DNA of 64,000 nt from positions 1,438,506 through 1,502,505 of the forward strand of contig OX638316.1 in assembly GCA_951812525.1 (NCBI GenBank). The letters run 5' to 3'. The notes below the pieces were generated by a model. That model saw nothing but the letters and a program-made list of their open reading frames with translations, searched no databases and had not been told where the DNA came from. Position numbers and translations under genes: made by a program. Positions 289-19,297 of the stretch are shown one piece after another (the first letter of the stretch is position 1; the number at the start of each line of letters is the position of its first letter). The stretch comes from an uncultured Poribacteria bacterium. Lineage in GTDB: Bacteria > Poribacteria > WGA-4E > WGA-3G.

Positions 289-3261
289 TTATTTGCCAGA
301 CGATTTTAGCTCACTCCAACGCGTTGTGAGTTTACCACCCGCACTCACATTGCCACGCAGATGCGTTGTGCGCAAGGTTGTCCGCTTGCCGTCCAGCGAG
401 ACATCCTCAATCTGGTAGTAGTAAACAACGTTGGGTTTCGCAGTTGTATCTGTGTACGTGTACACATGCTTTTCAGATGTCGTGCCGTGTCCGGGAACGA
501 TGCCCTTGACGTTGATAACATTGAACGCACTGCCTTTACCTTCACTCCGCAGGATATTGAAACCGGCGTTGTTTAGCTCAGACTGCGTGACCCACGTAAT
601 ATCAACATGACCCGTCTCTTGATTGCGGACCGGACGGAAACTCGACAGCGATACGGGCAGCGGACCACCGAGACGGTAGCCGGGTGTGCCGATGTCATTA
701 CGGTGTCCATAGTATGCCAAGCCAGCACCAGAAATGTCAGACTGTTTCCACGACGTTTCCATCGTGCCATCGTCTGCCGCATCCGGTGTACCGTCAATCA
801 CACGACTTCCATATTGACGTATCAACGATTGACGTGCCGCAGGATCGCGTGTAGGCAGTTCCCACATCACCATGCGTTGCGCACCTTGAACAGAAACGTT
901 ACCAGCTTCGTCTATCATCTTCAAAGCCGTTCTACCGCCTTCGTTGACTTTCGCATGCAAACTCAAGTAGAAGCCTGTGCGAGACAACAGGATAGAATCA
1001 CGTGCCAGCAATCCAAGCTCACGACGATGGTGTTGATAGAGGTTATAGACGCGGTCGGCATCAACATCGTTGGTACCGGCACCCGAAACGAGCAGTATGG
1101 TCTGATTCGGCTGAATCTTAGCACCTGCTTCGAAGTCGAAACTTGAATCAACGTAGGATTCAACGTCTTCTTTGTTGCGAATCTCTAAACGCCAACCGGC
1201 AAGGTCAATCGTTTCGCTCATCGATGAGTTGTAGAGTTCGATCCATTGGACAAGATTCCAACGAGGACCGGCATCATACATCACTTCAGAAATCGTTACA
1301 GACCCGCCAAAGGCATACGCTGTGTGCTTCGCTGCGCCATCTCTGTCGTGTTCTATGACGTTGATAGCAACATTCGGATAGCCGGGTGTGCCGGGTGAGA
1401 CGCGTCCATCAGCACCGCGATCATAACCTGTACCCATATATCCAAAGGACAGCCAGTCGTCTTTATGCATCCTGTTGCCTTCACGACCCTTGGGCCAATA
1501 GACACCACGATTCAGCTCTGTGCTTGCGCGTTTGGCAGCCTCTTTCGGATCGGCAGTGCCAACGGCGTGTCCGAGTTCGGTTTTCCGTCCCCATGACTGA
1601 TCCGCTGATGCGAAGGTATCATCTCCCACGGCGGCTTGGTCACCGGGTGCTGTCCAACCGACGAAGGGCCAGACTTGGGTATCAAACTCGTTAGGCTCTT
1701 GGCGTGTGAAGTAGCCGTTACCAGCAAAATCAACAACCTTTTCATGCGTCCCCTTTTTATCATTACCGTTTCTGAGAATGATAAGGAACTTCTTATCAGA
1801 CGGCAGATTCAGGTTTGCACTAACGGTATACACGTGAGACGTGCCTTTGTTGACGTTGGTCTGATTCGCCACAGCATCAATACTCACACCACCAGCAAGA
1901 CCAGTACCTACGGGATCGCGGTTATAGATAACCAGATATTCACCCGGTGCCAACTTATACGTCGGCAAGACAGCGAGGCTTTCATCCTTATAGTCGAAAT
2001 TGTCTTTGTTAGGATCATCAGCCTCTGTTTTACCGGCTTTCGGTGTTCTTGTGACAATACTCAGTTCCCAATTATTAACGTTTGTAGACGTAACGCCTGC
2101 CGGTGCCGGATCGGTGTTATTGAACAACTCAATCCAGTCGAGGTTGGCAGAAGAGGTATCGTTGCGCACCTCGTTGATAATAACGCCAGAACCGGGGTCA
2201 AGGTTTTTCGGCGCATCGGCTGTGCCGAGGTTCGTCGTCGGCGGAACAGCAGCAGGGGCTTTAGCAAAAGTCGTCGCCAAACCACCCGTACTGACATGAA
2301 CAGAACCCGGGGAACCGGTGTACCAACCGATCATGTTAATCGTACCTGCGGACGCTGCCCAAGAACCGCCTGCTGTACCAACACCAAGACCGTCAAGGTC
2401 TTTTCTACCGGTTGCTGGATTCGCCTTGTCAGACTGTTTATACTTACCTGCTTTAAGGTTGACTTTCCGATACATTGAGACGAGCGATGTGGGTTGAGTA
2501 GCGACTGTAGGATCATTTGTACCGAAAATCGCCGCGGTGTTACCGCTGTTGCCCACAAGTGACCAAGTGCCGCCAAAATCGGTGACTATGGAAACCTTAT
2601 CAACGATTACGCCATACACAGCGGCGGCTTCGGTGGTGGCCGCTGTTATTACTATCACGTCGCCAACCTGATTAACTGTCCGCGTGCGGCTGAAACGAAG
2701 CGAGAGTTCATCATCTGCTTTTAACGCACCGCCATGGTTGTAAATTTCAATCCATTGTGCCGTTGCTACGCCTGCAGGAGCAGCAGTTGTGCGATTACGC
2801 CCCCACATAATTTCGCTAATAATGAGTCTGTGCTTAAACGTAGCAGCTTTAGCGGGTGTAATCGTTGAAATTCTGGTAGCCGTAGTACCTACAAAACCAA
2901 CGGTCTCTATATCTGATACAATTGTAGTGGTCGCTGTTGCAGGAGGTACAGGTTTTACACCGACTGAAAGCACAAGGTCAATCTCACCACCAGACCGAAG
3001 TAGCACATCCAAATCTGTCAAAGTTGCTACTTGGACACCAGTTGTTGTATCAACAGTTGGCGTAAGGTCCACAATTCCGTGATTCTCACCACCTGTGTTA
3101 GCATCAGTGCCACCAGCACTCTCTGCAATAACCGTAAACCCGTTTGCTCCGGGTTGGGGGTCAACCGTTATCGGTGCAATCGCCTGCCCAAACGCCGACA
3201 TCGCAACGAACGTAAACATTAAAACTAAAACTAAGGAAAATGTCAATTTATTTGACAACAT
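289..3261 (-). CDS. Secreted protein with three lamin-tail domains
   Basis: A 990-residue exported protein. Residues 1-26 form a signal peptide ending SAFGQA. Three lamin-tail-like modules start near residues 146 (LIISEIMWG), 360 (VIINEVRND) and 655 (VTISEVMYD); each continues with the typical W-I-E-L/I-Y/F-N strand. LTD modules are beta-sandwiches found in surface proteins and nucleases, but no enzyme domain is seen here, so a surface or structural role is inferred. Residues 868-990 form a separate fibronectin-like C-terminal domain (containing SELNNAGFNILRSE) that ends KLTTRWSELKSSGK. That tail resembles the end of the LamG protein at 50.8 kb and may be a sorting tag. The ATG has a GGAGGA ribosome site at 3271-3276, nine bases upstream. 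The gene is single, with its own terminator at 194-232. Confidence 0.85.
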   Translation of the reverse strand: MLSNKLTFSLVLVLMFTFVAMSAFGQAIAPITVDPQPGANGFTVIAESAGGTDANTGGENHGIVDLTPTVDTTTGVQVATLTDLDVLLRSGGEIDLVLSVGVKPVPPATATTTIVSDIETVGFVGTTATRISTITPAKAATFKHRLIISEIMWGRNRTTAAPAGVATAQWIEIYNHGGALKADDELSLRFSRTRTVNQVGDVIVITAATTEAAAVYGVIVDKVSIVTDFGGTWSLVGNSGNTAAIFGTNDPTVATQPTSLVSMYRKVNLKAGKYKQSDKANPATGRKDLDGLGVGTAGGSWAASAGTINMIGWYTGSPGSVHVSTGGLATTFAKAPAAVPPTTNLGTADAPKNLDPGSGVIINEVRNDTSSANLDWIELFNNTDPAPAGVTSTNVNNWELSIVTRTPKAGKTEADDPNKDNFDYKDESLAVLPTYKLAPGEYLVIYNRDPVGTGLAGGVSIDAVANQTNVNKGTSHVYTVSANLNLPSDKKFLIILRNGNDKKGTHEKVVDFAGNGYFTRQEPNEFDTQVWPFVGWTAPGDQAAVGDDTFASADQSWGRKTELGHAVGTADPKEAAKRASTELNRGVYWPKGREGNRMHKDDWLSFGYMGTGYDRGADGRVSPGTPGYPNVAINVIEHDRDGAAKHTAYAFGGSVTISEVMYDAGPRWNLVQWIELYNSSMSETIDLAGWRLEIRNKEDVESYVDSSFDFEAGAKIQPNQTILLVSGAGTNDVDADRVYNLYQHHRRELGLLARDSILLSRTGFYLSLHAKVNEGGRTALKMIDEAGNVSVQGAQRMVMWELPTRDPAARQSLIRQYGSRVIDGTPDAADDGTMETSWKQSDISGAGLAYYGHRNDIGTPGYRLGGPLPVSLSSFRPVRNQETGHVDITWVTQSELNNAGFNILRSEGKGSAFNVINVKGIVPGHGTTSEKHVYTYTDTTAKPNVVYYYQIEDVSLDGKRTTLRTTHLRGNVSAGGKLTTRWSELKSSGK

Positions 3262-3386: not shown

Positions 3387-3599
3387 TTAGATCCCAGCGG
3401 TGTGTTGAAGTTGTTGTTTCGTCACTTCTTTGTAGGTCGTGACGAGTTCGTTTTCAAAGTCTATCCAGACAGGATTCTTCCGCCAGCGCGAGACTGTTGA
3501 ATCGCTGACCTTAAAATGTTCAGCGATCTCCGCATTGCTCATGCCGGAAAATGACATTTGACAAGCTGAGAGAATTGTGCCTTTTGAATTGCTGTGCAT
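3387..3599 (-). CDS. Small helix-turn-helix protein
   Basis: A 70-residue protein if started at the ATG at 3599. The frame can be extended 14 codons to a GTG at 3641, but that GTG sits only about ten bases from the expected start of the strong promoter at 3658-3686 and has GAGG only two bases away. The ATG has GGAAGAG nine bases upstream. Residues around SNAEIAEHFKVSDSTVSRW form a homeodomain-like HTH of the kind found in small terminase-like or resolvase-type proteins; the rest is a helical tail. DNA binding is inferred. Whether it is a regulator or a remnant of a phage or mobile element cannot be told. It lies at the edge of an AT-rich repeat region. Confidence 0.6.
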   Translation of the reverse strand: MHSNSKGTILSACQMSFSGMSNAEIAEHFKVSDSTVSRWRKNPVWIDFENELVTTYKEVTKQQLQHTAGI

Positions 3600-3657
3600 G
3601 ATGAAAATCTCTTCCGGTTGACTTTGAAAATTGAACTTCACAACCTCATACGCATTA

Positions 3658-5234: not shown

Positions 5235-5849
5235 TCACGCACTGCCTATAACGTTTTTATAAATTTCCTCGACTTCGCTCGGCGAAGTCATAAACCACTT
5301 GCCGCCAGGCGCATCTTCTATGTACCTCCCACGGAACCTCAGCACATTGTGTATCGTCTGCTCCAAATTCTCCGAATCATCTGTTTTAAAGATGAGTCGG
5401 ACCTCCGGAGGTTCTGGCATTGCGATCGGCACCTGTGATCCAGCTTTGTCAATCTTGCATGCCCAAAATTCCTTGCCTTCGTATGTTGCCAAACACCGAT
5501 ACGCCGGATAATAGTAAAGATAAACAGCATTCTTACCACTACCAAGTATCTGTACGGCATCTGAATCAAGAGAATCATCTGGATACACCTCAGGGTTCAA
5601 AAATATAGACCACTCACCCCGAATAGGGTTGTTTGCAAGTCCTTGCTTCTTCATTGTGCTGAGGGCACTTGAGACAGGATGCATTTCATTCGTTGATAGG
5701 ATTCCACCACGCGAGGCGTGCGTATCATCCACAACCTGCTTTATCTCTTTTTTCTTGATACCTGTCTCTCCTGAGAATATCTCTATGACGAGTTCTCGCG
5801 CGATCCTCTCGGTGAGAGGTTTTCCAGCATGTTTGTAGTTGTCATTCAT
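5235..5849 (-). CDS. Winged-helix protein with GIY-YIG-like domain
   Basis: A 204-residue protein from the ATG at 5849, which has GAGGGG seven bases upstream; a TTG five codons earlier overlaps that ribosome site and is less likely. The first 90 residues look like a winged helix (ITERIARELVIEIF region, then HPVSSALSTMKKQG and a beta wing). The second half, from VYLYYYPAY through WACKIDKAG to LEQTIHNVLRFRGRY and GGKWFMTS, has the order of elements of the GIY-YIG/T5orf172 (MUG113) fold: aromatic strand, K-I strand, E-x2-H helix, and a final W-F strand. The GIY-YIG motif itself is poorly kept, so nuclease activity is uncertain. It has its own strong promoter (6038-6066). Confidence 0.55.
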   Translation of the reverse strand: MNDNYKHAGKPLTERIARELVIEIFSGETGIKKKEIKQVVDDTHASRGGILSTNEMHPVSSALSTMKKQGLANNPIRGEWSIFLNPEVYPDDSLDSDAVQILGSGKNAVYLYYYPAYRCLATYEGKEFWACKIDKAGSQVPIAMPEPPEVRLIFKTDDSENLEQTIHNVLRFRGRYIEDAPGGKWFMTSPSEVEEIYKNVIGSA

Positions 5850-6037
5850 CCTTATGCCCCTCAAGGGAAGTTGCGTTTATATCTGTGTTGGTGAGATTTC
5901 TAACCGCACCAGCGTAAACTTTGGGACCTTGATTCTGATAAGAAAATTGCGCAATTTCCATTTATAGATTGTATATTATATTTTAGGACAATTATATTAA
6001 AATATAAAGTTATAATATAATATACGACTCAATATAT

Positions 6038-6308: not shown

Positions 6309-6420
6309 GTTCTCCTTATCGAACTCATGTTATATAGATAATTATAGGATCTATGGTAGATATTAGAATTAATTGGACATTCTTAAAGAGTGTGAATGCC
6401 ACTAATGAGCATTCACAGTG

Positions 6421-6446
6421 GCACAAACTAACAGTTTATGCTACAA
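6421..6446. repeat. 25-bp palindromic element, copy 3
   Basis: Core AAACT-AAC-AGTTT at 6425-6437. Outside the core it differs from the reverse complement of copy 1 at only about two positions. Function unknown; a transposition footprint or an operator are both possible. Confidence 0.6.
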
Positions 6447-6617
6447 AGATGTCCATTTATTTCTAGGTTTTACCATAGTTTGGGACGTATGTCAATCGGC
6501 GTGCTAATCAACTTTCAGGTCAGAATCTTGCGGATGGGTGTGTTTGTGAATGCAGAGGTTCTCTGCTGTCAATTGTCGGTTGGAAGTGTAACTTAGGCTG
6601 TTAAAATTCTACAGACA

Positions 6618-9600
6618 TTATTGTTTAGGCAAAGCAGTTTTTGGGAGTGCATAGACACCCCAGCGGACTTTTACAATCTCACCGAGTTTGGTAAGCCGCA
6701 CGAGTTCGTGATGTATTGCTGCTGGATTTCCATCAATCACTGCAATCACGTCAGCCGCCTTTTTCTCACCATCAGCCAAGAGAGAGAGGATTTGCTCTCG
6801 GAAAGGCACGCGTAGAGGCTTCCCACCCCGCAGTTTTTTCAACATACGGTTTGCCTGCCGTGATGAGCATGCGAGAATACGCTCCACCTCTTGCCTACTG
6901 GATGCCGCAGTCAGATTGTCCCGATCTGTTTCAAAACGTTGCCGTGTCGATATCACCTCAGGAAGTTTCGCCAGTCCACCGGCTACCTCAAAATCTTCCC
7001 AGTCAAATAGGAGCGTCTCAGGTCTGTCTGTGATGTCTGGGACTTCAAGGCTACTCATTAATACAACCTTTTTGCCGCCCAACCGGTTCAATCCCGCATG
7101 TCCGAGAATCTCTGTGATATATTCAGCAACAGTCTGCGTATAAACTCTCTGAAGCCGTTCATCTTTATAGTGTTGGAAATCCGTGTCCGCTTCATAACAG
7201 AGCGGTTCCTCATCGTTCCCAAACAAGATTTGCGCCCGCCGCCACGTGGCACCCGGTTCCCAGAACGGTGTGCCGACAATCCAAACGATCTCTGCTGCTT
7301 CAAAAGCCGTCTCTGAATTGTTCAGATCTTGAAATTCTCTCAGCAAACAGACATTCTCTTTTTCTCTGATGTCTCTCAATTGTTTGATAATTGCGGGATA
7401 ACTAACAATGGCATGTTTAACACTCGGATCCCTCTCGATTTCGGCACAGATACCGAGAAAAAAACGTTCACCCATTTTAGAGAGCCCAATAACGTCCCAT
7501 GTGCTATCGTAGTCCAACAGTGTTTTTAGGGTATGGACACCTGACCGAATCTGAAATACCTGATTTCCAGCGACCCACGGTGTCGGGTTGGTATGAATAA
7601 ATTCAATCTCTTCGCTTGAAAACGCTTTGGAAAGCTCTTGTTCAGACAAGGTTATTGACGTTAGCAAAAGCCGTTTGATACTCGGATGCAGCACCGGGGG
7701 CACCCAGAATTGTAGGACCTTGTCAAACCATATCATCGGTGCGTCGGCATCTCGGGTATAATGCGCTAAGAAACGCTTGAGTTGATGCCAAAACGTCCAG
7801 TCTGGATTCAGGTAGACGCTCGGAAATGTCTGAATCTGTTCGACCGTTCCTATATCCAAGATACCCAATCCAATTGCTCGTTCAATTGGCATCGGTATTC
7901 TCATGTCGGCGTCAAGCTCAAAAGATTCGAGTCCGAAAACCGGTAGTTTCTTTGCGGCGAGCCTATCTGCAGCATTACTATTGAGAGGAATGTAAGCAAA
8001 AACGCCACCTTCAAACGCAATAGAAAAACGTGCCAACGCCGCTCCGGTCTCGTCATCCACAACCCCTCGCTCGACAACCTTACCCTTGACATTGATTTGA
8101 TTCATCTGTCTAACGATTTCTGCTTCATACGGTTGAAACGCCCCTACTACTGTGCGGATGCGTCTAACAGCAAAATCGTCGGGTTCGCTTTCGATTTCCA
8201 ATGTGTTCATTAAAGCCTGTGCGAAGTTTCCTAACACATGCTCTTGCCAGGTTACACGCCATTCTTTTAATCTCTCTCTCGATATGCGACATTCCCAAAA
8301 AAAGCCGTCCGCTTTCGTTGAACTGACAATACAAAGCCGTTGTGTGCCGTTAAGGGGTTCAAGGATTTTTTCTGACACTGCCAATTGTTCTGGATTCAAA
8401 AACGTTTGGTTAAATCCAAATATTTGTGTCTTGGCACGTTGCAATGTAGCTGACTGAGATAGATAACCGCGTTCCTGGCATGCTGTGTAGACTGGACACT
8501 CTGGACACAGGGTTTCACTCGCATTCACGCCCTGACTCACCAGTGCTATGAATCGCTCCGGATCCTCACAGACATTCCCACGTTCAAAAGGCGTTGCCAT
8601 CCGAACGTCAACAGGTATCTTTTTCACCTGATCCCATAAGTAAGTCACATGCCGCCAGCGTGCGACGGATGGTAGGTTTTGTTTTTCAAAGTGCTTTACC
8701 GCTTCTTCTACTATTGGAAAACTCGCGCTAAAAGCGACTGTGCTGCTTTTCAAGAGATGCGATTCCAGTTCATAGTTATCCCTCGCGTCCGTCTCGGCAA
8801 CGAGTCCAACAATGCGCTTATCCGCCTCAAAGACCCGATTTATCTGACCGATGTTCTTTTCGAGCGGCTCATAAACTTTATCAGTAGTTTTCGGCTTTTG
8901 GAGTACCGGCGATGGACGTTTGATCGCCAAAGGGCTGAGTGTCCCTTCTCGCACCGCAAGCACTGTATCAGAAACAGGAGGGTCCGCAGTAATCCGTGGT
9001 AGAATGCCCGTATCGTCCCAAACATCTGTGATGAGGGTATCCTGTGTCGGGAGTCCAAGATCTGACGTAGATGCACGTATCCACATATCGCCATCCGTCT
9101 CCCATAACAATACATCTGTCTCACCATCCTCACTAACGCCCTGCGTCCAGTGATGAAAATTGTTCTCTACTCGGAGATAAGAAAACCTACGCTTCAAGAA
9201 TGCCTCTTTCGCCAGATCTAATTTATACGAACCCAAGGACGGTGGTGGGGCGATAGCCACTTGCGAAGTCTGTTCCAATCCTTCTGTTACAAGCGGATTA
9301 GGGGCGTGCAGTTCCGTTCGGAGCGCATCAATAGATGCAAAGAGAATCTCTTTCGCAATCACTGGTGGATTTAACAGGTCGCCCAATAAAATCTCATAGC
9401 GCGCATCCCAAGGACTGTGTCCCGCTTCCCCAAGGACTTCAAGGTACACATCTCGCCGATGTAGGTTTTCCGACGTCAGGCTGTCCTTGTAGATATATAA
9501 CCTCGCCGTCTCGGTATTTGGATGTAGATAATATGGAACCCTGCAAGAAAAGCGTAACCCACCAGACTTTGTCAGCGTCAACAACGGATTCCCAATAACA

Positions 9601-10031
9601 TTGGCGAGTGTCTCAATACAAGCCAAGACCGCCTCGGGTGCCGCACAAATAGCTTCGTATGTAAAATCAAGGTCATGCCATCGGGCACCGTCGCGTTCGG
9701 AAGGGACGCCCGTATACACCCGGATCCCCCACGATGTATGCCAGTGCCTGGTTTCCCAATCTATTATCTTTTGACGGCTCAAAAAACGTTCACCGCCGAA
9801 AGATTGTGGAACTCTATCGTACTCAGGACCACCCCCTACTGGCATAAAGGAAATCTCCGCCTCCTCTAAGTCATAAAGACTAACAGGATATCTATGCGCA
9901 CAATAAGCCGTGAAATGGTGATGGATCCCCTTATAGACCGAAGGTGTGACAACCGTCTTTTTTTGCCGAAATGGCTTCTCGCGTCGTTGGTGGCAACGTT
10001 GAATTATATCTTTCAGAGCGTTCATGGTCAT
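6618..10031 (-). CDS. Large primase/helicase-like protein, ATPase motifs lost
   Basis: An 1137-residue protein with no clear match by eye. Residues 115-215 (HDLDF at 119-123, TKSGGLRFSC at 154-163, then DVYLEVLGE) recall the motif order of archaeo-eukaryotic primases. Residues 400-1000 follow the layout of a superfamily 2 helicase: a first strand and loop at 405-421 where a Walker A is expected but AETDARDN is found; a CPEC-x5-C cysteine cluster at 509-518 followed by GYLSQ; VSSTKADG at 569-576 where a DExx box would be; TSITLSE at 791-797 like motif III; and IVGTPFW at 918-924. A winged helix closes the protein (1080-1130). The helicase thus appears inactive while the scaffold is kept. A replication or mobile-element role is inferred. 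Two in-frame ATGs (10031, 10025) compete; neither has a strong ribosome site. Confidence 0.4.
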   Translation of the reverse strand: MTMNALKDIIQRCHQRREKPFRQKKTVVTPSVYKGIHHHFTAYCAHRYPVSLYDLEEAEISFMPVGGGPEYDRVPQSFGGERFLSRQKIIDWETRHWHTSWGIRVYTGVPSERDGARWHDLDFTYEAICAAPEAVLACIETLANVIGNPLLTLTKSGGLRFSCRVPYYLHPNTETARLYIYKDSLTSENLHRRDVYLEVLGEAGHSPWDARYEILLGDLLNPPVIAKEILFASIDALRTELHAPNPLVTEGLEQTSQVAIAPPPSLGSYKLDLAKEAFLKRRFSYLRVENNFHHWTQGVSEDGETDVLLWETDGDMWIRASTSDLGLPTQDTLITDVWDDTGILPRITADPPVSDTVLAVREGTLSPLAIKRPSPVLQKPKTTDKVYEPLEKNIGQINRVFEADKRIVGLVAETDARDNYELESHLLKSSTVAFSASFPIVEEAVKHFEKQNLPSVARWRHVTYLWDQVKKIPVDVRMATPFERGNVCEDPERFIALVSQGVNASETLCPECPVYTACQERGYLSQSATLQRAKTQIFGFNQTFLNPEQLAVSEKILEPLNGTQRLCIVSSTKADGFFWECRISRERLKEWRVTWQEHVLGNFAQALMNTLEIESEPDDFAVRRIRTVVGAFQPYEAEIVRQMNQINVKGKVVERGVVDDETGAALARFSIAFEGGVFAYIPLNSNAADRLAAKKLPVFGLESFELDADMRIPMPIERAIGLGILDIGTVEQIQTFPSVYLNPDWTFWHQLKRFLAHYTRDADAPMIWFDKVLQFWVPPVLHPSIKRLLLTSITLSEQELSKAFSSEEIEFIHTNPTPWVAGNQVFQIRSGVHTLKTLLDYDSTWDVIGLSKMGERFFLGICAEIERDPSVKHAIVSYPAIIKQLRDIREKENVCLLREFQDLNNSETAFEAAEIVWIVGTPFWEPGATWRRAQILFGNDEEPLCYEADTDFQHYKDERLQRVYTQTVAEYITEILGHAGLNRLGGKKVVLMSSLEVPDITDRPETLLFDWEDFEVAGGLAKLPEVISTRQRFETDRDNLTAASSRQEVERILACSSRQANRMLKKLRGGKPLRVPFREQILSLLADGEKKAADVIAVIDGNPAAIHHELVRLTKLGEIVKVRWGVYALPKTALPKQ

Positions 10032-10384
10032 CTAACCTACTTTTGGCTGCGGTTCATCTGCGTAAACATAAGCGGAGATTAGGACACCTAAAACCTTATG
10101 AAATTTGCATCATAACTATCACTTATGGTGTCCCAATAGGAATTAAAAATACAACATTCGCCTGGGAAATCAACGAAGATAAACGCAATATTGTTTATAC
10201 GGTGGAACTCGGCTTAATACGAAACCAAAAACCTAATGCGTACATTACCACAAATTATCTTGTTAATCAAGTTTTTGTATATAGGAGATCAAGGGCATTT
10301 TGGTTTAGTTTTTCTGTGGAGATGATGGGGCTTATGGAAGTGAACCTTCTTACCGACTGCTGACTGCTGATAGCTAATTGCTAT
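10032..10384. other. Intergenic spacer between porV and the primase-like gene
   Basis: I see no gene. The last part, 10352-10384, is a GCAGTCAGC-type short repeat directly after the stop of porV. A plus-strand frame crossing this spacer has no ribosome site and no protein-like composition. Confidence 0.5.
10352..10384 (-). repeat. GCAGTCAGC-type repeat after porV
   Basis: On the minus strand the bases read as repeats of AGCAGTCAGC/AGCTATCAGC, ending GCAGTCGG. It starts immediately after the porV stop codon. The same kind of element follows several other genes in this window (near 11473, 17805, 20946, 38250, 39461 and 62895), always in the sense direction of the gene before it. Confidence 0.55.
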
Positions 10385-11404
10385 CTAAAACCTAATCCGG
10401 AGGGATATACGATGGCTGCCACCTAACGCTGGATGATTCGCAAAGGCATAGTCCAGCCCGGCACCGGCACCTGTGACGAATCGGAGGTTCAACCCAGCAC
10501 CAGCCGTTAATTGGCGAATACTCTCAAGGCTGCCTCTACGCTCAGCGAGCCCGATCCGTAAAGCAAGCAGATCGAACAGTGTCCACTCGGCACCCCCATG
10601 CAATTCAACGCCGTCTTTGATGTAAGTATCCAAAGCAAGAATGAGCACACTTCGGAAAACATTGAGTTTATGTGTCGTTGCGATACCGATTTTGAGATGC
10701 GGCGGTATCGTTTCGGTATGCGATGTAAGGTTTGATGAAGGCGGCGGCGTGTTCCAATAAAGCTTCGTCTGAAAGGCATCGCTCGCCTGTAGACCGAGCG
10801 TCAGTTGATGCGGCTTTTCTGGGTTCGTCGTTGCAATGAAACCGATGTCCGCACCACCACCGATGGCGTTTGTGCTCCGATATCCACTCATATAGAGAAG
10901 CTTGAGCGTGCCACCAAGTCGTAAATCCATACCGTGAAAAGAGGGTAGCCGCCAACCCGATGCCAAGAGAAAAGCGTTATCCGTATTGTTGAAAGAGCCT
11001 ACTACCTCTGGTCGGTTCGTCGGTCCAACTGGACGACTAGCCACCGGTAGACTGGTGATAGGAATATCGTCAACGCCGACGCGAAGCCAACTCACACCGA
11101 TCGCCCCTCGATCTTTCAGCGGATGGATATAACTGACAAAATCGTAAGCATCCTCTCCATTGAGTGTGGAGTGCATGAAACTAACCTCATACCGGGTAAG
11201 TTGTCCCAATGCCGCAGAATTCCAGTAAGGCGCATAAGCATCTGCACTCAGAGCAGTCCCCGCACCGCCCATAGCAAGGGGACGGGCTCCAACACCAAGC
11301 GTCAGGAAATCAGCCGTATATTTCGCATCTACGGACAAAAGTCCCGTACAAAACGCAATAATAGGCACAATAAAGTAGAAAATATTTTTTTTCTGATGTT
11401 TCAT
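10385..11404 (-). CDS. porV: PorV/PorQ-family outer membrane protein
   Basis: A 339-residue outer membrane beta-barrel of the PorV/PorQ (FadL-like) family. After a signal peptide ending SVDA, residues 30-60 carry the family hallmark FLTLGVGARPLAMGGAGTA followed by D-A-x-A-x-x-W-N-S-A-A-L. The body alternates amphipathic strands and ends in RIRF with a terminal aromatic, as usual for barrel proteins. In the Bacteroidota T9SS, PorV shuttles cargo from the SprA translocon to the PorU sortase on the cell surface. Here it lies 100 bases after the PorU-like gene on the same strand, which supports a T9SS role over a generic PorV-like role. Its own ribosome site is weak, suggesting it depends on the upstream gene. 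Confidence 0.8.
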   Translation of the reverse strand: MKHQKKNIFYFIVPIIAFCTGLLSVDAKYTADFLTLGVGARPLAMGGAGTALSADAYAPYWNSAALGQLTRYEVSFMHSTLNGEDAYDFVSYIHPLKDRGAIGVSWLRVGVDDIPITSLPVASRPVGPTNRPEVVGSFNNTDNAFLLASGWRLPSFHGMDLRLGGTLKLLYMSGYRSTNAIGGGADIGFIATTNPEKPHQLTLGLQASDAFQTKLYWNTPPPSSNLTSHTETIPPHLKIGIATTHKLNVFRSVLILALDTYIKDGVELHGGAEWTLFDLLALRIGLAERRGSLESIRQLTAGAGLNLRFVTGAGAGLDYAFANHPALGGSHRISLRIRF

Positions 11405-11472
11405 TTTATTCCAGCTATTAGCCCTCAGATATCAGTCGCCAGAAGTTCCACTTACAGGATAAATGTACTCTG

Positions 11473-11500
11473 ACAGCCGACAGCCGACAGCTGACAGCCT
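11473..11500 (-). repeat. GCAGTCAGC-type repeat after porU
   Basis: On the minus strand the PorU stop codon is followed by a run of A and then GGCTGTCAGC, GTCGGC and GTCGG units. Same class and same relative direction as the repeat at 10352-10384. Confidence 0.5.
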
Positions 11501-11504
11501 TTTT

Positions 11505-14500
11505 TCAACGCAGCTTCATCATTTTGAGTATTTCAGTGATGTCTTTTTCACCCTCACGCATGATTTTAAGTCTGGCGTAGTAAACGCCATTTGCCACCTC
11601 AACGCCATCGGAATCCCTGCCGTCCCATTCCACCATAAGGAACCCAGGCGTCGCAGGCATTGAAAGCTCACGGATGAGCCGCCCACTCAGCGTATAAATC
11701 TTCACAGCAAGTGAGTCAGCCGGTGCCGTTAATTCACAAGTCAGCGTGGTTGTGCGTGGGAACGGATTCGGATAGTTCAGAAACGATAGCAGCTGCAAGG
11801 TATCGTGAACCCGGAATGTAATACGTTTTGTGTCAGCGTTTCCGTGCACATCGCTGGCTGTTAGTCGAATCTCATACTCGCGCGGTTCAAGTTCAGGAGA
11901 CTGATACGTCAAAACGAGTTGATTCGAACCGGGATGATACGTCAACTGATACGCTTCTGGATTGATAGGTTCGTACGAGAGACCACTTCCAAGTTCCAAC
12001 AGGAGCGGGCGGGTGAGATAATCAAGTCCACTTGGATCGGTGAGTGTTGCGCCGATGAGCGGTTCAGCATCCGTTGCATCTCCCGGAACGAAGTGCTGTT
12101 GGTTACCAATAGTCAACTCTATGTCCGGTGGAACAGTATCTTCACTGTGCAAGAGTGTAACCGCTCCAAGCCGATCTGTTGTGGCTCTAATCGTCCCTAC
12201 AGGTCGGGTTTCAAACCGAAATCTATCGCCGGGCTCAAAGGGACGTGTGCCTTGTGTAATTTGGAGACGTAAACCGTAGGGCGCGTAAGAGAAAGGTTGA
12301 CCAACCGTCCCGCGGAGTGGCGTATTTCCACCGGTCTCGGATCGTAGAACACCGGTTCTCTCGCCTTCAATTTGAAACTCGGAGCCGGTCAAAAAAAAGA
12401 TAATCCATCGATCTTCCGGCATGGAAGTATCTGCTGGAAATTCAATATAACTGACTGTACCGGTGCCGCGGTTAACATCCCCGTACCCAGATGCATACCA
12501 ACGCAATTCTCCCTGCGCCGCACCGCTGAAGTCCGGGTCAACATCCAAAGGTTGTTCAAGCGCAGTTATGTTGAATGTCCAAATGTCACCAAACTCGAAA
12601 GGTGCATCAGGAACAGTCTCCATGTTAATAGCGAATCCATGCTCAAAGTTCGTATAATCTGTGGTGAAACTTGCGAGTTGCTCCGCCGGTGAAACAACTT
12701 CTAACGCTTCCAGTGACCGCGAATCTTCTATGAACGGTGCGCGAAGCATACGATAGGTTTGAGAACCTGTGAAAAGAAGGACGTACTTCCCAGATGGTGC
12801 CCCATCCGGATGGATGCGAATGTCGCGAAGCTCACCTTTACCAATATTCTCTGCATCTATGTTGGTCACATGTAGCCGTTGTTGTAAGGTACTTGTAGTA
12901 TCAACTAACAGCTGAGAGGGCAGTCGGATCCAGTTTCCGAGCGTCGGACTCCATTGGTAAACACCTATTCCACGTGCGCGGGAAGCGACTGCAGTCCCAA
13001 TTGTAGCCGCCACATCCGATACATCGGTGACTTCCTCTGCACTCCCTAACAACTCTTCAGCGAGTTGCGTGCCGAGTGCTCCGAGGTCGAAACTAAAGTC
13101 AATCGCTATCGGAGCAGTCAGCTGCATAGAAGCCTTTGGCGTATTTGCAACAACACTATCAGTAACTTGAACGTCCTCTGCTGAGTGTGCATCAACAACG
13201 AGTTCATAGCCATAAACCGAACCGCCGGGTAGCGGTGCACGCTTAGACATCCCGCCAACAACACTTATATGTTCGCTCGGAGTGTCAGGTTTCGCTGTCG
13301 TACCCACAGCAGCGAACTTCTGCGTATCTAAGGCGCGTATCGTAAGTACAGCCGGATTTTGAAGAACACCAGGCGGCGCAGTGATAACACAGTTCCGATC
13401 CAAACTAACAATCTGACTTGAGGACGCTGCCCCTACCACGCCCATGTCAACGGTAATGCGTCGATAGGCGATATTATCACCTTCTTCGTTTTCGAGAACT
13501 TTGCCGGGTTGATCCGTCTCACCGAAGGTTGGATCTACAGACACAAATATATCGTGTGTACCGAGGGGTAACCCGCGTGTGTCAAAATTTCCGGGTTGTC
13601 CACCCACAAATGGAAAATTCCCTGCTAAAGGCAAAACGGCAGTCGCGATTGGTAGTGTATTCAGTGGATCAGGTTCATAGACATCTTTTCGCGCAGACGC
13701 ACTTTTGGAGTCCACTAACGGATTGCGTTGTATCCAGTCCGCAGGTTGGATTCGAGCCGTTCCGAGATGGTTGACATCACTATCGATGATCGAGTCATTG
13801 TCAACATCTGGATTGCCGTAAAAAAAGGCAACTTCAACAGGAGTTTTTATCTCCTCTCCCTCTACCTGCACGTCGGCTGAGAGATACCACTCCTTCGTTT
13901 CGGCGTTGTAGCTGTATCCAACAACATCGGTTCTACTTATTTGCACAACAGAGAGATTCGGATACGCGTAGGGGTAATACCGCAATACCTGACTCGTAAC
14001 CGCATTATTGTCTGTATCCGTGACCAAAATTTCATATCGGATGAGAGAACCGTCCGTTGGTGCCTCAAGCGGTTCAGGCACTGTCCACCATCCTTCTGTC
14101 GAAAGAGGCGGTGGTGCCGGAGTGAGGCTCACATTCTCCCATGACCGGCTAATAGGGTTGCGCCAAGTCAAGAGGACTGAAGCCAGCTGCTCTTTCTCAT
14201 CGGAAACCTGAACAGAGATACGGAATTTTTCTTCACCGACCAACTCAGCTTGAATATCAAGGATTTTTGGGATATTGACGGTAAACCCATCACCACCGAC
14301 AGCAACTGTTGTATCACTTTGGGCATAATACTCAACGTGGGCATCACCGCTTGCAATGTTTTGCGGAACATCAAAGGTCACCGCTGGATAGGCACCATTG
14401 CTGACAGTAAGGGTCTTCGTCGAAATTACATCACCCGTGTAGTAGTTAACAGGACCTGAGATGCCCTGTGCTACAACCGTTTTCCCTGGAAACACTGCCT

Positions 14501-17500
14501 TGACAGTGAGCGATCCGCTAAAGGTGGGATTTCTGGTAAAACGTTTTGTACGCGTCCCTGGATCATAATTGGCATTCTGAACGTATCCGGGTGCGATCCG
14601 GAGGGTATCACCCGGAGCAACCGTTTTCGTTTCAACATCAGGCAAAATCTCACCACCAGCAATAGCAAGCTGCAAAGCAGGGTCCCCGAAAAGCGTGTAT
14701 TCCATCATGATGTCAATCTGGCCGGTGCCTTCCGTCATCAGAAGCTCAACTTTAGAATCAAAACTTAAGGGACCGAGTTGCCGAATGTTCCGTTTAAAGA
14801 GCATATCGAAGATAATACGGTTGAGTGCATCGTTTCCACTGCCATAAGTCAGCCGCGTCGCACTTAACATACCAATAATACCGCCCCTCTCTTTGCGCAG
14901 TAACTTCTCAGCCATGCTCGGCTCGCCGGGTTTGTCAAAATAACCGTTGTAACAACTGAGGACTAACATGAACGGGATCTTATCGGTTTCTTCAACCTGA
15001 TCGACGGACGCGTTGTCGAAAATTGCCTCGTGCGCCCAGACAATTCTGCCACCATGCCCAGCATATTGTGCGAGCACAGCACCCTCTCCAAGCGCATCAA
15101 TAATCCTATCTTTTGCAACACGTTGTGGCAAGAGACCCGTGTACTCCGCCGGACGCGCTTCAACAAGATCAATAACATCTTCAAGGAAAACCTCAACAGT
15201 TTCGTAACCTAAGCGGGTGTGGTCCTTCGCAATTTCGTTGAGACTCTTTTTGAAAATAAAATCGCCAGAGTTGCTGACTTCGTCGTCAGCAACAGAGATA
15301 ATCTTTCTGCGCCAATCCCCGTTAGGTGGGCTCTGTTCATAAGCCAAGATTTTGTCAACGACAGCATTCGCCTGGCTGACACTTTCAGCACTGAGCCTAC
15401 CGATATAAAAATCGGTGAATTCATCGTGACCGGAGACGGTGGCATACCAGTGATCCGCCGCCGTTCGACCAAAGGAATCGGTTCGGATATAGTGTGTCGG
15501 AATGTAACCAGTAAGTTCGGGTGGCTCGGAATAAATTTCTGTATCAACACCCCGAAAATCAAAGGTACCGTCCCCTAAGAGCACAACATAAGTCGGTGCT
15601 GGTGGCACCCACGATTGATATGCCTGTGTAAGAAATGCCTTAATCGCTTTAGGACTAACACCACCATCACCAAATGTATTGTAGATATCATCAGTTGTAA
15701 CCACTTTCGCTCGGTGTCCACCACCTTTAGGCGTTTCCCGCCACGCCGCCAATCTTTGCGCCGCATCCAAGAATACGGGATGTGCCACAACGATATAATC
15801 GGCACCGTGTCTCGCAGTTGCTAAGTCTGTAGGCTCTACGATCTCGACGCGTTCTGGTTGACGTAACGCAGTATCAGAAACAGCAATAAACGCTGACTTC
15901 CGGGTATCGAACATCTGAAAAAGTGCATTGTATAAATTAGGGTTCTCTATATCCCGCTCTATGGTGACGCCCTGCATCCGAGCAGTGAGGATATTACCAT
16001 CTGTCTCAAAGATGTGTACACCCGGATCACGGAATGCCTCGACCTTGTACTGGAGGTTACGCGCACTCTGAACCCGATCGTTTGAGTCTGCCTCCGCAGT
16101 GGGCGAATTGAACCACAACTCGTCTGCAACGGCTCGGAAGAGACGCGTATACTCGACAGAAAAACGGTTGAGATAGACGTGATATGGATACCGCGTAGTA
16201 TCCTCATCAACGTTATTATCAATGCGGGCAAAGGACAAGACGTTCTGCTCGCCCTTGACAACATCCTTAAGCGTATCCCACGTGCGTAAGGTACGCTCAA
16301 CGGTGAGTGGGTCTTGATGCTGCCATTCGGCTACCTCAATTCGGACCCCGTTAATAGCAACCAAAATTTGATGGGCTACCGGTGTACCGCCCCGCAAATC
16401 AACAGAAATATGGGGCGGGTCAAAACTTTTGGCAACATCATGAAGCGGAAACTCAAGACGCATCTCAGCACCATCGCCGCCATTCTTAATACCGTCCCAA
16501 TACCAGAAATCTAACGCATCAAACCATCCATGTTTATCGCCGGGCGAAACCGTATCGGTATAGACGAATTCAAGGTTATTCGTCAGGTGCTCTTCTTCAA
16601 AATCTACTTTAGAACGAAAAGTGGGGACCTGTGTCGCTGTTGGATCTGTGGGGCTGGCGGTGATTTGTGGGACCCGTGCTGGAACGCGACGCCTGTTATC
16701 AAGCACGAGCCAATAGATATTCCAACGACTATAGCGATTGCTCGGTTTATGCCCAAGGAAAAAGATCGCATCCGCTGGATCAAAACTACCGTCGCTCGCA
16801 CCACTAACATAGATAGGAATATCTCTATCCCCTTGTGTGAGTCGCAGTTTCGCTGGATCTGTACCGACAATTTCTATACCCCAATCGCGCTGTAAAGCCG
16901 CCGCTGTTAAAGCGTAAATGCCAGTTTCTCTGACAAACAATTTATAGCGTGTTTCATTAGCAACTTCGATAGGAACAAGGGTTGGTGCTGCGGGGACCGG
17001 TGGACGGGGTGCGCGGAAGTGACGCGCCTCCTCAGCATTAAGGAGCTGATGCGATAGCGCACGTTCAAACGCTTCTGATTCCGGCACAATCCGCCCTGGA
17101 CCGCGCTGCGTCATATATGACTGAGAACCTAAGCCTTGATATGTCTGTTTCGCATCGGAAAAACGGATATTCACTGTGAGGCGTGAATACAGGCGTAATT
17201 GGCGGGTATTCGGCAGATATTGCACAGGATATAATGCCAACGCGATGACGCGTTGATTGCGGATATAGCCCTCTCGTACAACGCGGGCAAGAGGGTGTCC
17301 CGGATATGAAATGCTTTTACCATTTGAGCGATAAGCACTTCCACTTTCCCGCCAGTATTGCGTCGCTGAGTGCTGCGCTTTAGATTCGTGCACGTCAAAA
17401 ATTGGGGCTGGCACAAGACGAACACCGTTACGTGTCTCGAAGGGAGCAGCAGAAACATCAACCGCTTCAATCTCAGCTGATGCCGGTATACCCAACATCA

Positions 17501-17792
17501 ACCGCGTGACTGGAACCCTCGGATTGCCCGGTTCATTCGTGAAACGACTATCAGTATATCCGACCTCTTGATAACGGACGTTCTCTCGAACTACTTCGGA
17601 GATGGTGAGTGCTGGTAGGGTGAATTGGACAGTGATCCCACTATCTGATGTGACTTGGGTAACCTGCGCAGAAGTACTACCTATACCTATGATAAAGAGG
17701 AGAACTTGGACGCTCAGCAGGATACCAAGCCCAAATCGTGTGCGCAACCGTTCGTGTTTCGCTCGCCTCTGTTGTGAGAATAATTGCATCAT
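11505..17792 (-). CDS. porU: PorU-like gingipain-family (C25) surface protease
   Basis: A 2095-residue exported cysteine protease. A signal peptide covers residues 1-43. Residues 660-1045 are a peptidase C25 domain: YIVVAHP opening, LLGDGTFDF, catalytic His913 in YAGHGG and Cys947 in LSCYNG, then the LTYGSGN and FGDPAL segments. An N-terminal region (45-650) has the beta-rich layout of PorU and gingipain propeptides. Residues 2002-2095 are a FlgD-Ig-like T9SS C-terminal domain (NYPNPFPRTT, IYTLSGRLIREL, WDGRDSDGVEVANGVYY). PorU cleaves cargo C-terminal signals and attaches cargo to surface sugar. P. gingivalis PorU is about 1160 residues, so nearly 950 residues between the protease and the C-terminal domain are extra, including a CARDB-like stretch near 1220-1420. 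It could instead be a large gingipain-like cargo; the adjacent porV favours PorU. No strong ribosome site is seen. Confidence 0.75.
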   Translation of the reverse strand: MMQLFSQQRRAKHERLRTRFGLGILLSVQVLLFIIGIGSTSAQVTQVTSDSGITVQFTLPALTISEVVRENVRYQEVGYTDSRFTNEPGNPRVPVTRLMLGIPASAEIEAVDVSAAPFETRNGVRLVPAPIFDVHESKAQHSATQYWRESGSAYRSNGKSISYPGHPLARVVREGYIRNQRVIALALYPVQYLPNTRQLRLYSRLTVNIRFSDAKQTYQGLGSQSYMTQRGPGRIVPESEAFERALSHQLLNAEEARHFRAPRPPVPAAPTLVPIEVANETRYKLFVRETGIYALTAAALQRDWGIEIVGTDPAKLRLTQGDRDIPIYVSGASDGSFDPADAIFFLGHKPSNRYSRWNIYWLVLDNRRRVPARVPQITASPTDPTATQVPTFRSKVDFEEEHLTNNLEFVYTDTVSPGDKHGWFDALDFWYWDGIKNGGDGAEMRLEFPLHDVAKSFDPPHISVDLRGGTPVAHQILVAINGVRIEVAEWQHQDPLTVERTLRTWDTLKDVVKGEQNVLSFARIDNNVDEDTTRYPYHVYLNRFSVEYTRLFRAVADELWFNSPTAEADSNDRVQSARNLQYKVEAFRDPGVHIFETDGNILTARMQGVTIERDIENPNLYNALFQMFDTRKSAFIAVSDTALRQPERVEIVEPTDLATARHGADYIVVAHPVFLDAAQRLAAWRETPKGGGHRAKVVTTDDIYNTFGDGGVSPKAIKAFLTQAYQSWVPPAPTYVVLLGDGTFDFRGVDTEIYSEPPELTGYIPTHYIRTDSFGRTAADHWYATVSGHDEFTDFYIGRLSAESVSQANAVVDKILAYEQSPPNGDWRRKIISVADDEVSNSGDFIFKKSLNEIAKDHTRLGYETVEVFLEDVIDLVEARPAEYTGLLPQRVAKDRIIDALGEGAVLAQYAGHGGRIVWAHEAIFDNASVDQVEETDKIPFMLVLSCYNGYFDKPGEPSMAEKLLRKERGGIIGMLSATRLTYGSGNDALNRIIFDMLFKRNIRQLGPLSFDSKVELLMTEGTGQIDIMMEYTLFGDPALQLAIAGGEILPDVETKTVAPGDTLRIAPGYVQNANYDPGTRTKRFTRNPTFSGSLTVKAVFPGKTVVAQGISGPVNYYTGDVISTKTLTVSNGAYPAVTFDVPQNIASGDAHVEYYAQSDTTVAVGGDGFTVNIPKILDIQAELVGEEKFRISVQVSDEKEQLASVLLTWRNPISRSWENVSLTPAPPPLSTEGWWTVPEPLEAPTDGSLIRYEILVTDTDNNAVTSQVLRYYPYAYPNLSVVQISRTDVVGYSYNAETKEWYLSADVQVEGEEIKTPVEVAFFYGNPDVDNDSIIDSDVNHLGTARIQPADWIQRNPLVDSKSASARKDVYEPDPLNTLPIATAVLPLAGNFPFVGGQPGNFDTRGLPLGTHDIFVSVDPTFGETDQPGKVLENEEGDNIAYRRITVDMGVVGAASSSQIVSLDRNCVITAPPGVLQNPAVLTIRALDTQKFAAVGTTAKPDTPSEHISVVGGMSKRAPLPGGSVYGYELVVDAHSAEDVQVTDSVVANTPKASMQLTAPIAIDFSFDLGALGTQLAEELLGSAEEVTDVSDVAATIGTAVASRARGIGVYQWSPTLGNWIRLPSQLLVDTTSTLQQRLHVTNIDAENIGKGELRDIRIHPDGAPSGKYVLLFTGSQTYRMLRAPFIEDSRSLEALEVVSPAEQLASFTTDYTNFEHGFAINMETVPDAPFEFGDIWTFNITALEQPLDVDPDFSGAAQGELRWYASGYGDVNRGTGTVSYIEFPADTSMPEDRWIIFFLTGSEFQIEGERTGVLRSETGGNTPLRGTVGQPFSYAPYGLRLQITQGTRPFEPGDRFRFETRPVGTIRATTDRLGAVTLLHSEDTVPPDIELTIGNQQHFVPGDATDAEPLIGATLTDPSGLDYLTRPLLLELGSGLSYEPINPEAYQLTYHPGSNQLVLTYQSPELEPREYEIRLTASDVHGNADTKRITFRVHDTLQLLSFLNYPNPFPRTTTLTCELTAPADSLAVKIYTLSGRLIRELSMPATPGFLMVEWDGRDSDGVEVANGVYYARLKIMREGEKDITEILKMMKLR

Positions 17793-17802
17793 TTATTTCT
17801 GT

Positions 17803-17840
17803 TAGCTGTCCGCTGAAAACCGATAGCCGACTGCTAATCT
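17803..17840 (-). repeat. GCAGTCGGC-type repeat between qor and porU
   Basis: The minus strand reads ATTAGCAGTCGGC, ATCGG and TTTTCAGC units in the 49-base gap after the oxidoreductase stop and before the PorU start. It belongs to the same class as the repeats at 10352 and 11473. Confidence 0.45.
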
Positions 17841-17841
17841 A

Positions 17842-18825: not shown

Positions 18826-19297
18826 CGTTTTTGCTCCGATTTTTTATTTTTCATGCACCTTTACGTCCTTAATTCTAACATATTTAATAAAGGTGATACC
18901 AAATTTAAAGACAGGCGATAAAGGCATCCAGTTTTCGGTCTCCGAACAACCGTTTTCTATGAAACTGAGTTTACTGGACGGCACGACTTCAGTTCAATTT
19001 ATATTTGTCCTGTTTCACCTCGGTTTTCTTCAAAAAAACAAAACAATTTTTGTGTAATCTAACATTGTGTACTTCTTGTGATTAGGATGCTGGAAATAGT
19101 ATAAAACCGATGTGAGAAGAAAGAAGATTACAACTTTTTGAGTTAACCAACGTCTAAAAGATACAACAGCCCCAAAAATACGGCATCTTCGGTAGGCGAA
19201 GTTTCCAAATTATGCTACGAAAACATAATTTGTCTTAGCTTTACATTCTTCGCCGGTGCAAGTGTAAATGAAAATTAATCAAGGAGGGGAATACACA
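18826..19297. other. Intergenic region between divergent genes
   Basis: A 470-base divergent spacer. It holds an 8-bp inverted repeat AAATTATG/CATAATTT (19207-19231) that could be an operator for the HepT-like gene. Just before it, 19190-19206 resemble the GGTAGGCGAGGTTTCTAACC repeat. No clear promoter hexamers or further gene are visible. Confidence 0.5.

Follow-up and report, generated by a model that had tools for sequence, protein, structure and literature searches.

The gene P0001, which spans 1137 codons on the minus strand (start at 10031, stop at 6618) of a 64,000-nucleotide stretch from an uncultured Poribacteria bacterium (GenBank assembly GCA_951812525.1, contig OX638316.1, positions 1,438,506 to 1,502,505; hereafter, the window), belongs to an expanded gene family in Poribacteria, most copies of which stand alone and on the chromosome. 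This family shares ancestry with plasmid and virus replication proteins that combine a primase-polymerase (Prim-Pol) domain, an iron-sulfur XPD/DinG-like helicase and a helix-turn-helix (HTH) region. In P0001 and most of the examined copies, both the Walker A and the Walker B motifs of the helicase have been lost, some copies have lost the whole ATPase domain, and the remaining modules are under purifying selection. The presence of many motorless copies in sponge-associated Poribacteria suggests a DNA-binding job that is carried out without a motor.

Prim-Pol-helicase replication proteins, DinG-like helicases and helicase-free Prim-Pols have been described previously (PMC5862659 and PMC11981726, in the sections consulted), and the word primase is absent from the consulted part of the latter, a DinG review. 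Our literature searches returned no description of a Prim-Pol fused to an iron-sulfur helicase, nor of a family composed of motorless versions of this fusion. The more than 100 proteins of the present family form a natural series that leads from an intact iron-sulfur helicase through a point-erased motor to one that is deleted; the cysteine block persists in every protein that retains its region, and the DNA-binding end is well preserved, so that the role of an XPD-like iron-sulfur domain without ATP becomes testable. The series also shows a route from the replication protein of a mobile element to a host gene family, possibly employed in defence, in an uncultured phylum that is common in sponges.

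Fold and domain architecture of P0001

The host genome (G000) is a single contig of 5.06 Mb, and the GC content of P0001 is 0.481, compared to 0.473 for the window. A preliminary description of this DNA, made from the sequence alone, had reported an intact frame of 1137 codons encoding a primase/helicase-like protein with erased ATPase motifs; the frame indeed contains no internal stops, and all the strings quoted in that description were located in the translation (AETDARDN at residues 412–419, CPECPVYTACQERGYLSQ at 509–526, CIVSSTKADG at 567–576, LTSITLSE at 790–797 and IVGTPFW at 918–924). The features identified in and upstream of P0001, all on the minus strand, with window coordinates, are as follows.

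6618..10031, minus: P0001, a 1137-aa pseudo-primase-helicase; open frame, homologs within one Poribacteria taxonomic family
9240..10025, minus: Prim-Pol domain of the archaeo-eukaryotic primase (AEP) fold, residues 3–264; AlphaFold2 model and VIA, Foldseek alone weak
9663..9683, minus: Prim-Pol motif I, RWHDLDF, with the acidic pair D120/D122; located by sequence, catalytic equivalence presumed
9549..9572, minus: Prim-Pol motif II, TKSGGLRF, with Arg; located by sequence
8775..8798, minus: erased Walker A, AETDARDN; a paralog has AETGAGKS in the same columns
8448..8636, minus: iron-sulfur-type block, residues 466–528, with C488, C509, C512 and C518; conserved in the family
8304..8333, minus: erased Walker B, CIVSSTKADG; a paralog has CIIDEAQ in the same columns
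6954..8870, minus: XPD/DinG-type superfamily 2 (SF2) helicase body, residues 388–1026; AlphaFold2 model, Foldseek and VIA
7083..7112, minus: eroded motif VI, EILGHAGLNR; QIIGRAGLNR-type in paralogs, QAIGRAR-type in mobile relatives
6633..6914, minus: C-terminal HTH and winged helix, residues 1040–1133; VIA Z of about 9 to ArsR/Zalpha winged helices, AbiEi_4 matched in family members
10242..10273, minus: promoter-like site, CTTGAT then TGGTAATGT, 210–240 bases upstream of the P0001 start; the -10 part was recognized by eye

Searches with the P0001 sequence yielded an HTH_5 match in Pfam (E 0.037) as the only hit to that database, best E-values of 0.12 in PHROGs and 0.13 in the PDB, and no match in NCBIfam; a profile of 20 members had no match in the PDB, and a profile of the N-terminus had a single one, at E 1. 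AEP-TOTE (PF22548) was considered as well and discarded: P0001 has no Pfam match to it up to E 10, and none occurs in the 21 genomes searched for it. Because the sequence databases provided nothing useful on P0001, the protein was assigned through its predicted fold. The full-length AlphaFold2 model, built from 70 members, has a mean pLDDT of 73.6 and a pTM of 0.70, with good quality between residues ~560 and 1060 and poor quality at the N-terminus and around the cysteines.

The model of the helicase body matched XPD structures in Foldseek (9p55, E 9.4e-9; 4a15, E 1.2e-7), and VIA aligned 485 residues of the 388–1026 region with XPD of TFIIH (6ro4, Z 11.0, rmsd 5.7), followed by Staphylococcus aureus DinG (Z 8.8), CasDinG (8.6) and another DinG structure (6fws, 8.2). 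The preliminary description had named homologs devoid of a helicase fold as the finding that would overturn it; the region instead matches XPD and DinG. Upstream of the cysteine cluster given in that description lies a fourth cysteine, C488, which yields the pattern C-x20-C-x2-C-x5-C between the two Walker positions. XPD and DinG are known to carry their cysteine block between the two Walker motifs; by their order, the insertions in P0001 would fit XPD, in that the cysteines likewise lie between these motifs and an arch-like insertion follows Walker B and precedes motif III. P0001 resembles TFIIH XPD, DinG and CasDinG in fold, in the four cysteines and in the sequence in which motifs III, V and VI follow one another, and differs from them in the absence of Walker A and B, in the eroded motif VI and in the fusion to Prim-Pol and HTH/winged-helix domains.

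The N-terminus, when modelled alone from 120 sequences, reached a pLDDT of 84.3 and a pTM of 0.82, and rows 1–24 of the VIA output for this model are all AEP/Prim-Pol structures, led by ORF904 of plasmid pRN1 (1rni, Z 10.0, 166 aligned, rmsd 3.5) and followed by phage NrS-1 (7.2), LigD (4.8) and an archaeal primase (4.1). The primase part of the earlier reading is supported accordingly by VIA, and Foldseek by itself gave a weak best Prim-Pol match (E 0.13). The motif I acidic pair is present in P0001 by sequence position (D120, D122). At the motif II position, where many AEPs carry His, P0001 has Arg160, and Arg occupies this column in all 123 family open reading frames (ORFs) that have it; E198 is a candidate for the acidic residue of motif III (Glu in 114/123). 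With its Arg at motif II and its dead helicase, P0001 differs from ORF904 and NrS-1, the Prim-Pols that it resembles in N-terminal fold; ORF904 has a different helicase partner.

At the C-terminus, the winged helix (residues 1074–1133) matched ArsR and Zalpha types with a VIA Z of up to 9.5. Of 20 family members whose motifs are intact or almost so, an AbiEi_4 winged helix was detected in 16 (best E 1.2e-6) and a weak AAA_22 match in four (best E 0.014).

In a library of predicted structures of viral proteins, matches were as strong as those in the PDB, the best being to a 1085-aa protein (E 6.2e-11), with weaker ones named primase/polymerase.

Erasure of the motor and retention of the cysteine block

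The host genome encodes 12 long copies of the family, seven of at least 1132 aa and five of 782–1006 aa, along with a C-terminal fragment; four of the 12 are clustered at 904–919 kb. In an alignment of these 12, three show AETGAGKS or AETGAGKN together with IIDEAQ, IIDEMS or IVDEVA in the columns where the motifs of P0001 are erased. One such paralog (L033:14151-17561; loci are numbered with the prefix L) reads LIAETGAGKSHAVESY and LCIIDEAQ where P0001 reads LVAETDARDNYELESH and LCIVSSTK, and in a profile-profile alignment with the mobile relatives described below, AETDARDN stands opposite ADTGTGKN and VSSTKADG opposite VQDDVSTH. The Walker A and DExx positions, which had been placed by eye, are confirmed by these alignments, and homologs with an intact Walker A, the search for which had been recommended, exist among the family paralogs (AETGAGKS-type). 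In P0001, the Walker A lysine (AETDARDN), the DE of Walker B (VSSTKADG) and the arginine of motif VI (QxxGR; EILGHAGLNR versus the QIIGRAGLNR-type of paralogs) are all missing.

For comparison across the family, 130 ORFs were collected and 126 distinct ones retained after removal of four duplicates. The minimum length was 500 aa in the first set and 400 aa in the second, stop-containing copies were entered as open pieces, and the set was picked from among the matches listed in the genome searches, so that the proportions below are no census. Intact motifs were defined as G.GK[ST] and hhDE, and motif calls depend on the alignment. By this classification, 15 of the 126 ORFs have both Walker motifs, 18 have one, 84 have neither, and in nine the domain is missing or partial; when GKN, the form found in one group of mobile relatives, is also accepted as Walker A, the respective numbers are 19, 15, 83 and nine.

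All four cysteines are present in 99/99 ORFs that keep the region, which is gone in the other 27 of the 126, and in 66/66 full-length ATPase-null copies. Column conservation, counted before duplicate removal in 17 intact and 66 full-length null copies, hardly changes from the former to the latter in the iron-sulfur block (0.83 to 0.80), the HTH (0.77 to 0.80) and the winged helix (0.80 to 0.76), and falls from 0.88 to 0.52 in motif III, which was not part of the classification. An intermediate stage is represented by L024, the sister to the rest of the P0001 clade, which has kept DEAE and lost Walker A.

Distribution of the family

With P0001 as the query, matches were found in 30 of 60 genomes (own included), all in one genus. 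The family profile matched 49 of 84 genomes of the phylum Poribacteria, all inside one taxonomic family that accounts for 58 of the 84, and none of the 26 genomes outside it; one of the 49, G019, was probably matched only via a mobile-type relative (a single match, E 2.9e-12; its C61 protein). No relatives were detected in viral contigs, phages or plasmids with the family queries (P0001, the profile, and an intact copy in tblastn). Nine additional ORFs of ~1000–1036 aa (L192, L229–L232, L234–L236) stand outside the set of 126; four of these are included in the tree, where they are labelled null without motif classification.

Copies of both kinds, null and intact, co-occur in G000, G010 and G028, in some cases adjoining each other (L033, L068, L076), as would be expected if P0001 served as an inactive subunit alongside a paralog with a competent ATPase. 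Among the copies found and classified, however, those of six genomes (G001, G007, G008, G012, G023 and G026) are exclusively ATPase-null, and G005 has none with both motifs; these seven assemblies are 91–97% complete, so that a copy could have been missed. Because such null-only genomes exist, an active paralog seems unnecessary for the null copies, and the subunit explanation appears quite improbable.

Relatives encoded by mobile elements

Distant relatives of the family turned up in a search of nine chosen genomes, and a wider search added L220–L228 and L233. One of them, on a 9,612-base contig (L191), is a 986-aa protein of the Prim-Pol-helicase type, with a Prim-Pol tail, a zinc knuckle, GGAGGGKST, a cysteine block and LDEAD, encoded alongside a Rep_3 initiator (E 5.3e-11 and 5e-15). 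Two groups were distinguished: M1 (L191 and L220–L222), with GK[ST] and DE in all four members, and M2 (L223–L227 and L233), with G.GKN, a DD/DE Walker B, SAT and QA[IV]GR[AG]R in all six. In profile comparisons, the family matched M2 with an E-value of 3e-153 and M1 with 5e-44. The motif I acidic pair is present in 11/11 mobile relatives that have the region, including L190 and L228, in which the helicase is a different one, and the motif II position is occupied by Arg or Lys in those with that region.

The protein at L222 carries an N-terminus of the Pfam family BT4734-like_N (E 6.5e-24) fused to the same iron-sulfur helicase and is encoded near Rep_3, ParA and a tyrosine integrase; relatives with this helicase thus lie beside Rep_3 at two loci, L191 and L222. 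This fusion links the family to the BT4734-like and VirE-type primases of mobile elements, from which P0001 differs in matching no Pfam primase family. L228, with the other helicase, is located by Rep_3, and L233 by RuvC. Of seven scans of viral contigs, one recovered a relative, at a single locus (L237:1726-4932, on a 27.8-kb IMG/VR contig), which encodes a Prim-Pol-iron-sulfur-helicase with intact Walker motifs. The presence of relatives with intact motifs beside Rep_3, ParA and integrase genes and in a viral contig makes the family kin to mobile-element replication proteins. Mobile-type and family copies occur together in several genomes.

A search of plasmids by tblastn gave no match for P0002 or L223; with L222, only the primase part was matched, in records many of which are named BT4734 or VirE type, and PDB sequence searches with L221 and L223 found none. 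The proteins at L190:1623-5474 and L228:4973-8656 combine related Prim-Pol and winged-helix parts with a different SF2 helicase (STGKST, IDEVD); the helicase attached to the primase module is exchangeable. Near the L237 gene lies one for a small HTH protein that looks, on visual inspection, like a terminase small subunit, and a defence-like pair, a NACHT-type NTPase and a SIR2-like gene, occupies L224:5-5078, a few kilobases from a mobile-type Prim-Pol-helicase.

Among the family loci themselves, Rep_3 lies beside two of 113, L100 (ATPase-null) and L149 (one null copy and one with Walker B only), and ParA lies beside L149 and L155; neighbours of this kind next to copies that do not have both motifs tie motorless copies to replicons. 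L149 (G079:C20) and L100 (G006:C29) are possibly integrated or free plasmids that carry motorless copies. No match to Rep_3, ParA or integrase was found anywhere in the 64-kb window.

Phylogeny, selection and synteny

In a tree of 61 rows, the family was separated from nine outgroup rows of mobile relatives with support of 100, and the P0001 clade was nested within an 18-row group, 11 rows of which are ATPase-intact (support 99), with branching inside the group partly unresolved. The null state requires nine changes on this tree, six of which are forced by well-supported branches; the tree comes from a quick search with the motif columns included and contains some long branches.

Pairwise dN/dS in the P0001 clade (15 pairs, Nei-Gojobori) was 0.14–0.21 for the whole gene and 0.15–0.27 for the ATPase domain (residues 401–660), and whole-gene values in a second ATPase-null clade were 0.11–0.17 (15 pairs). 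Five pairs with at least one motif gave 0.21–0.28; these pairs are far younger (dS 0.11–0.20) and hence an unfair yardstick. The earlier suggestion that the loss of the ATPase looks selected, as opposed to decay, therefore stands insofar as the protein has been kept after the loss, as the values of its own clade indicate, and is not upheld insofar as it made the loss itself adaptive. Plain decay, with the copies being long-lived remnants of integrated elements whose frames are open by chance, might be read from the truncated and stop-containing copies, among them a C-terminal relic that lies 1.2 kb beyond the window, and from the ongoing erosion of motifs across the family. Given the low dN/dS in two null clades and within the ATPase domain, the retention of the four cysteines in every full-length null copy, and a null clade with conserved flanks, we assign this explanation a very small probability.

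The flanks in question belong to the second null clade, whose upstream flank is common to nine loci in nine genomes and whose downstream flank is common to seven; another syntenic group includes L032, L070, L076 and others among the matches listed. Shared flanks identify both groups as inherited chromosomal loci. The position of P0001 is not shared: the upstream stretch (10032–18900, with genes from 10378 on) has long matches in 37 of 38 genus genomes, own included, and the block downstream of P0001 lies elsewhere where it was found, in G028 ~190 kb away. P0001 and its G028 homolog (L021) have ~200 bp of flank in common, on the upstream side only, and no reading frame explains that stretch; an upstream element common to every family copy was considered and rejected.

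Such a solo gene with many dispersed copies, at a location unshared with the relatives searched and with a few copies on Rep_3-bearing pieces, could be a self-propagating one-gene element that uses the Prim-Pol-helicase as its own replication protein. Some copy groups are, however, syntenic between species, so that this is not a general account; ATPase-less copies would not be expected to drive replication alone, and the short, one-sided flank common to P0001 and L021 likewise speaks against such an element. We consider this possibility very unlikely.

Possible functions of the motorless copies

P0001 is probably unable to hydrolyse ATP or to translocate and would act as an ATP-independent DNA-binding protein through its winged-helix, Prim-Pol and iron-sulfur modules. 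As for its function, we tentatively prefer interference with related replicons. The three modules would hold replication-type DNA structures, and a motorless copy would occupy the origin, the primed template or the partner proteins of related incoming elements; such occupation would block the replication of these elements, making the copy a dominant-negative decoy that would be maintained as many diverging copies. The explanation as a whole, from the shown ancestry and motor loss through DNA binding to interference, is one in which we have moderate confidence. Its most far-reaching form, namely, that Poribacteria turned the replication protein of their plasmids and viruses into a large, mostly chromosomal family of motorless dominant-negative decoys, a genome-encoded immunity against related replicons in which the ATPase was removed repeatedly and independently and the iron-sulfur and DNA-binding parts were strictly kept, is speculative and rather doubtful.

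Several results weigh against this interpretation or parts of it. The DNA-binding modules are conserved and not diversified, and this is no evident prediction of an arms race. The only match of P0001 to the PADLOC anti-phage profiles is an AbiEi winged helix over 32 residues (E 0.0049). All eight members of the P0001 clade retain the acidic pair of the Prim-Pol (D or E at position 122), so that an enzymatic role may persist, and a sigma-54-activator-like gene upstream of some copies, described below, would rather suit a regulator. The model of the cysteine block is poor (pLDDT < 50 at 480–488 and 520–524), and the iron-sulfur cluster is putative. The drops in conservation at Walker A (0.90 to 0.38) and Walker B (0.98 to 0.63) from intact to null copies are a product of the classification and no independent evidence, and whole-gene dS exceeds 1 in four of the 15 P0001-clade pairs, so that the dN/dS ratios of those pairs are approximate. 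A defence-like effect of a primase-polymerase (PMC7693054, in the part consulted) is not used as support, given that the consulted part of PMC9751324 ties the knock-out to loss of addAB.

The retained acidic pair, along with the Prim-Pol fold, would suit a P0001 that is still an enzyme, an active primase-polymerase without its own motor in which the dead helicase body would serve as a DNA clamp, by analogy with ColE2-type Rep. The consulted part of PMC5862659 describes proteins that combine Prim-Pol, PriCT-1 and HTH without a helicase, and unwinding by ColE2 Rep without an NTPase domain; ColE2 Rep, RepE/RepS and PrimHYQ resemble P0001 in having Prim-Pol and HTH without a working motor, and differ in that they have no helicase body, whereas P0001 keeps a motorless one and belongs to a multi-copy family. 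The second acidic residue is nevertheless replaced in 33 of the 82 ATPase-null ORFs with a letter at that position, so that catalysis is no general requirement across the family, and the zinc knuckle of several mobile relatives was not seen in P0001 in sequence and profile comparisons. An enzymatic P0001 therefore seems unlikely to us.

A host transcription or chromosome regulator, acting via the HTH and winged helix with the rest as scaffold, would account for these two modules being among the best-kept parts of null copies, for the structural resemblance to winged helices of the ArsR type and of Zalpha, and for the location of some copies at inherited loci amid ordinary-looking genes. Moreover, a sigma-54-activator-like AAA gene (PF00158, E 6.5e-61) lies divergently within 2.2 kb upstream of four of the 126 family ORFs (L031:12433-13533, L035:6895-7824, L078 and L099; matches of at least 100 aa), a count for which at least 2 kb of upstream sequence was covered for 88 of the 126; the gene is on the same strand at L073 and present as short fragments at L036 and L088. 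This gene is not beside P0001, however, and its close copies in the host genome also occur away from family genes. No enrichment was seen for the few palindromes examined in the upstream regions of family genes, and k-mer counts yielded only a promoter-like -35 element and start-codon context. We assign the regulator a low probability. The Rep_3 and sigma-54 neighbours point in different directions, and the weight given to interference and to each alternative was left unchanged.

Genomic neighbourhood

The heptamer AACTTGA was found in 17 of 73 non-redundant family upstream regions, compared to a shuffle mean of 2.8, with a TATAAT-like box, recognized by eye, ~17 bases beyond it; some family copies may share a similar promoter, judging by these motifs. 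A first look at the neighbourhoods of the host-genome family loci revealed no gene common to all. A gene that we take to encode a formylglycine-enzyme-like protein lies within 4 kb of 14 family ORFs, in part because of shared synteny; neither this gene nor the sigma-54-like gene was found near P0001 (1.1–1.5 kb searched on each side). A T5orf172/GIY-YIG-like gene downstream of P0001 (window 5235–5864, minus strand, E 0.0073) was rejected as a partner, its 68% homolog (L160:6162-6770) being oppositely oriented beside another family copy, in G024. The widely matched stretch upstream of P0001 contains PorV-like and C25-peptidase-like genes (window 10385–17792), presumably of the type IX secretion kind.

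Repeated sequences were noted as well. At window 6346–6486 lies a dispersed repeat of ~130 bases that forms one long imperfect hairpin (-54 kcal/mol) and is similar to miniature inverted-repeat transposable elements; at least four further copies in the host genome are 96–98% identical, 77–90% copies occur in many relatives, and one copy (L034:8199-8327) precedes a second family gene by ~150–200 bases. The C-terminal family relic outside the window lies near a second copy of a small HTH gene and, with it, reproduces a portion of the surroundings of P0001 (G000:C1:1437125-1437331 and 1437868-1438140, immediately beyond the window, and window 3387–3641). Finally, window 347–2397, part of a gene for a 990-aa lamin-tail-domain protein, is repeated with 88% identity at G000:C1:2361883-2363933, and relatives contain many sequences that match it more weakly.

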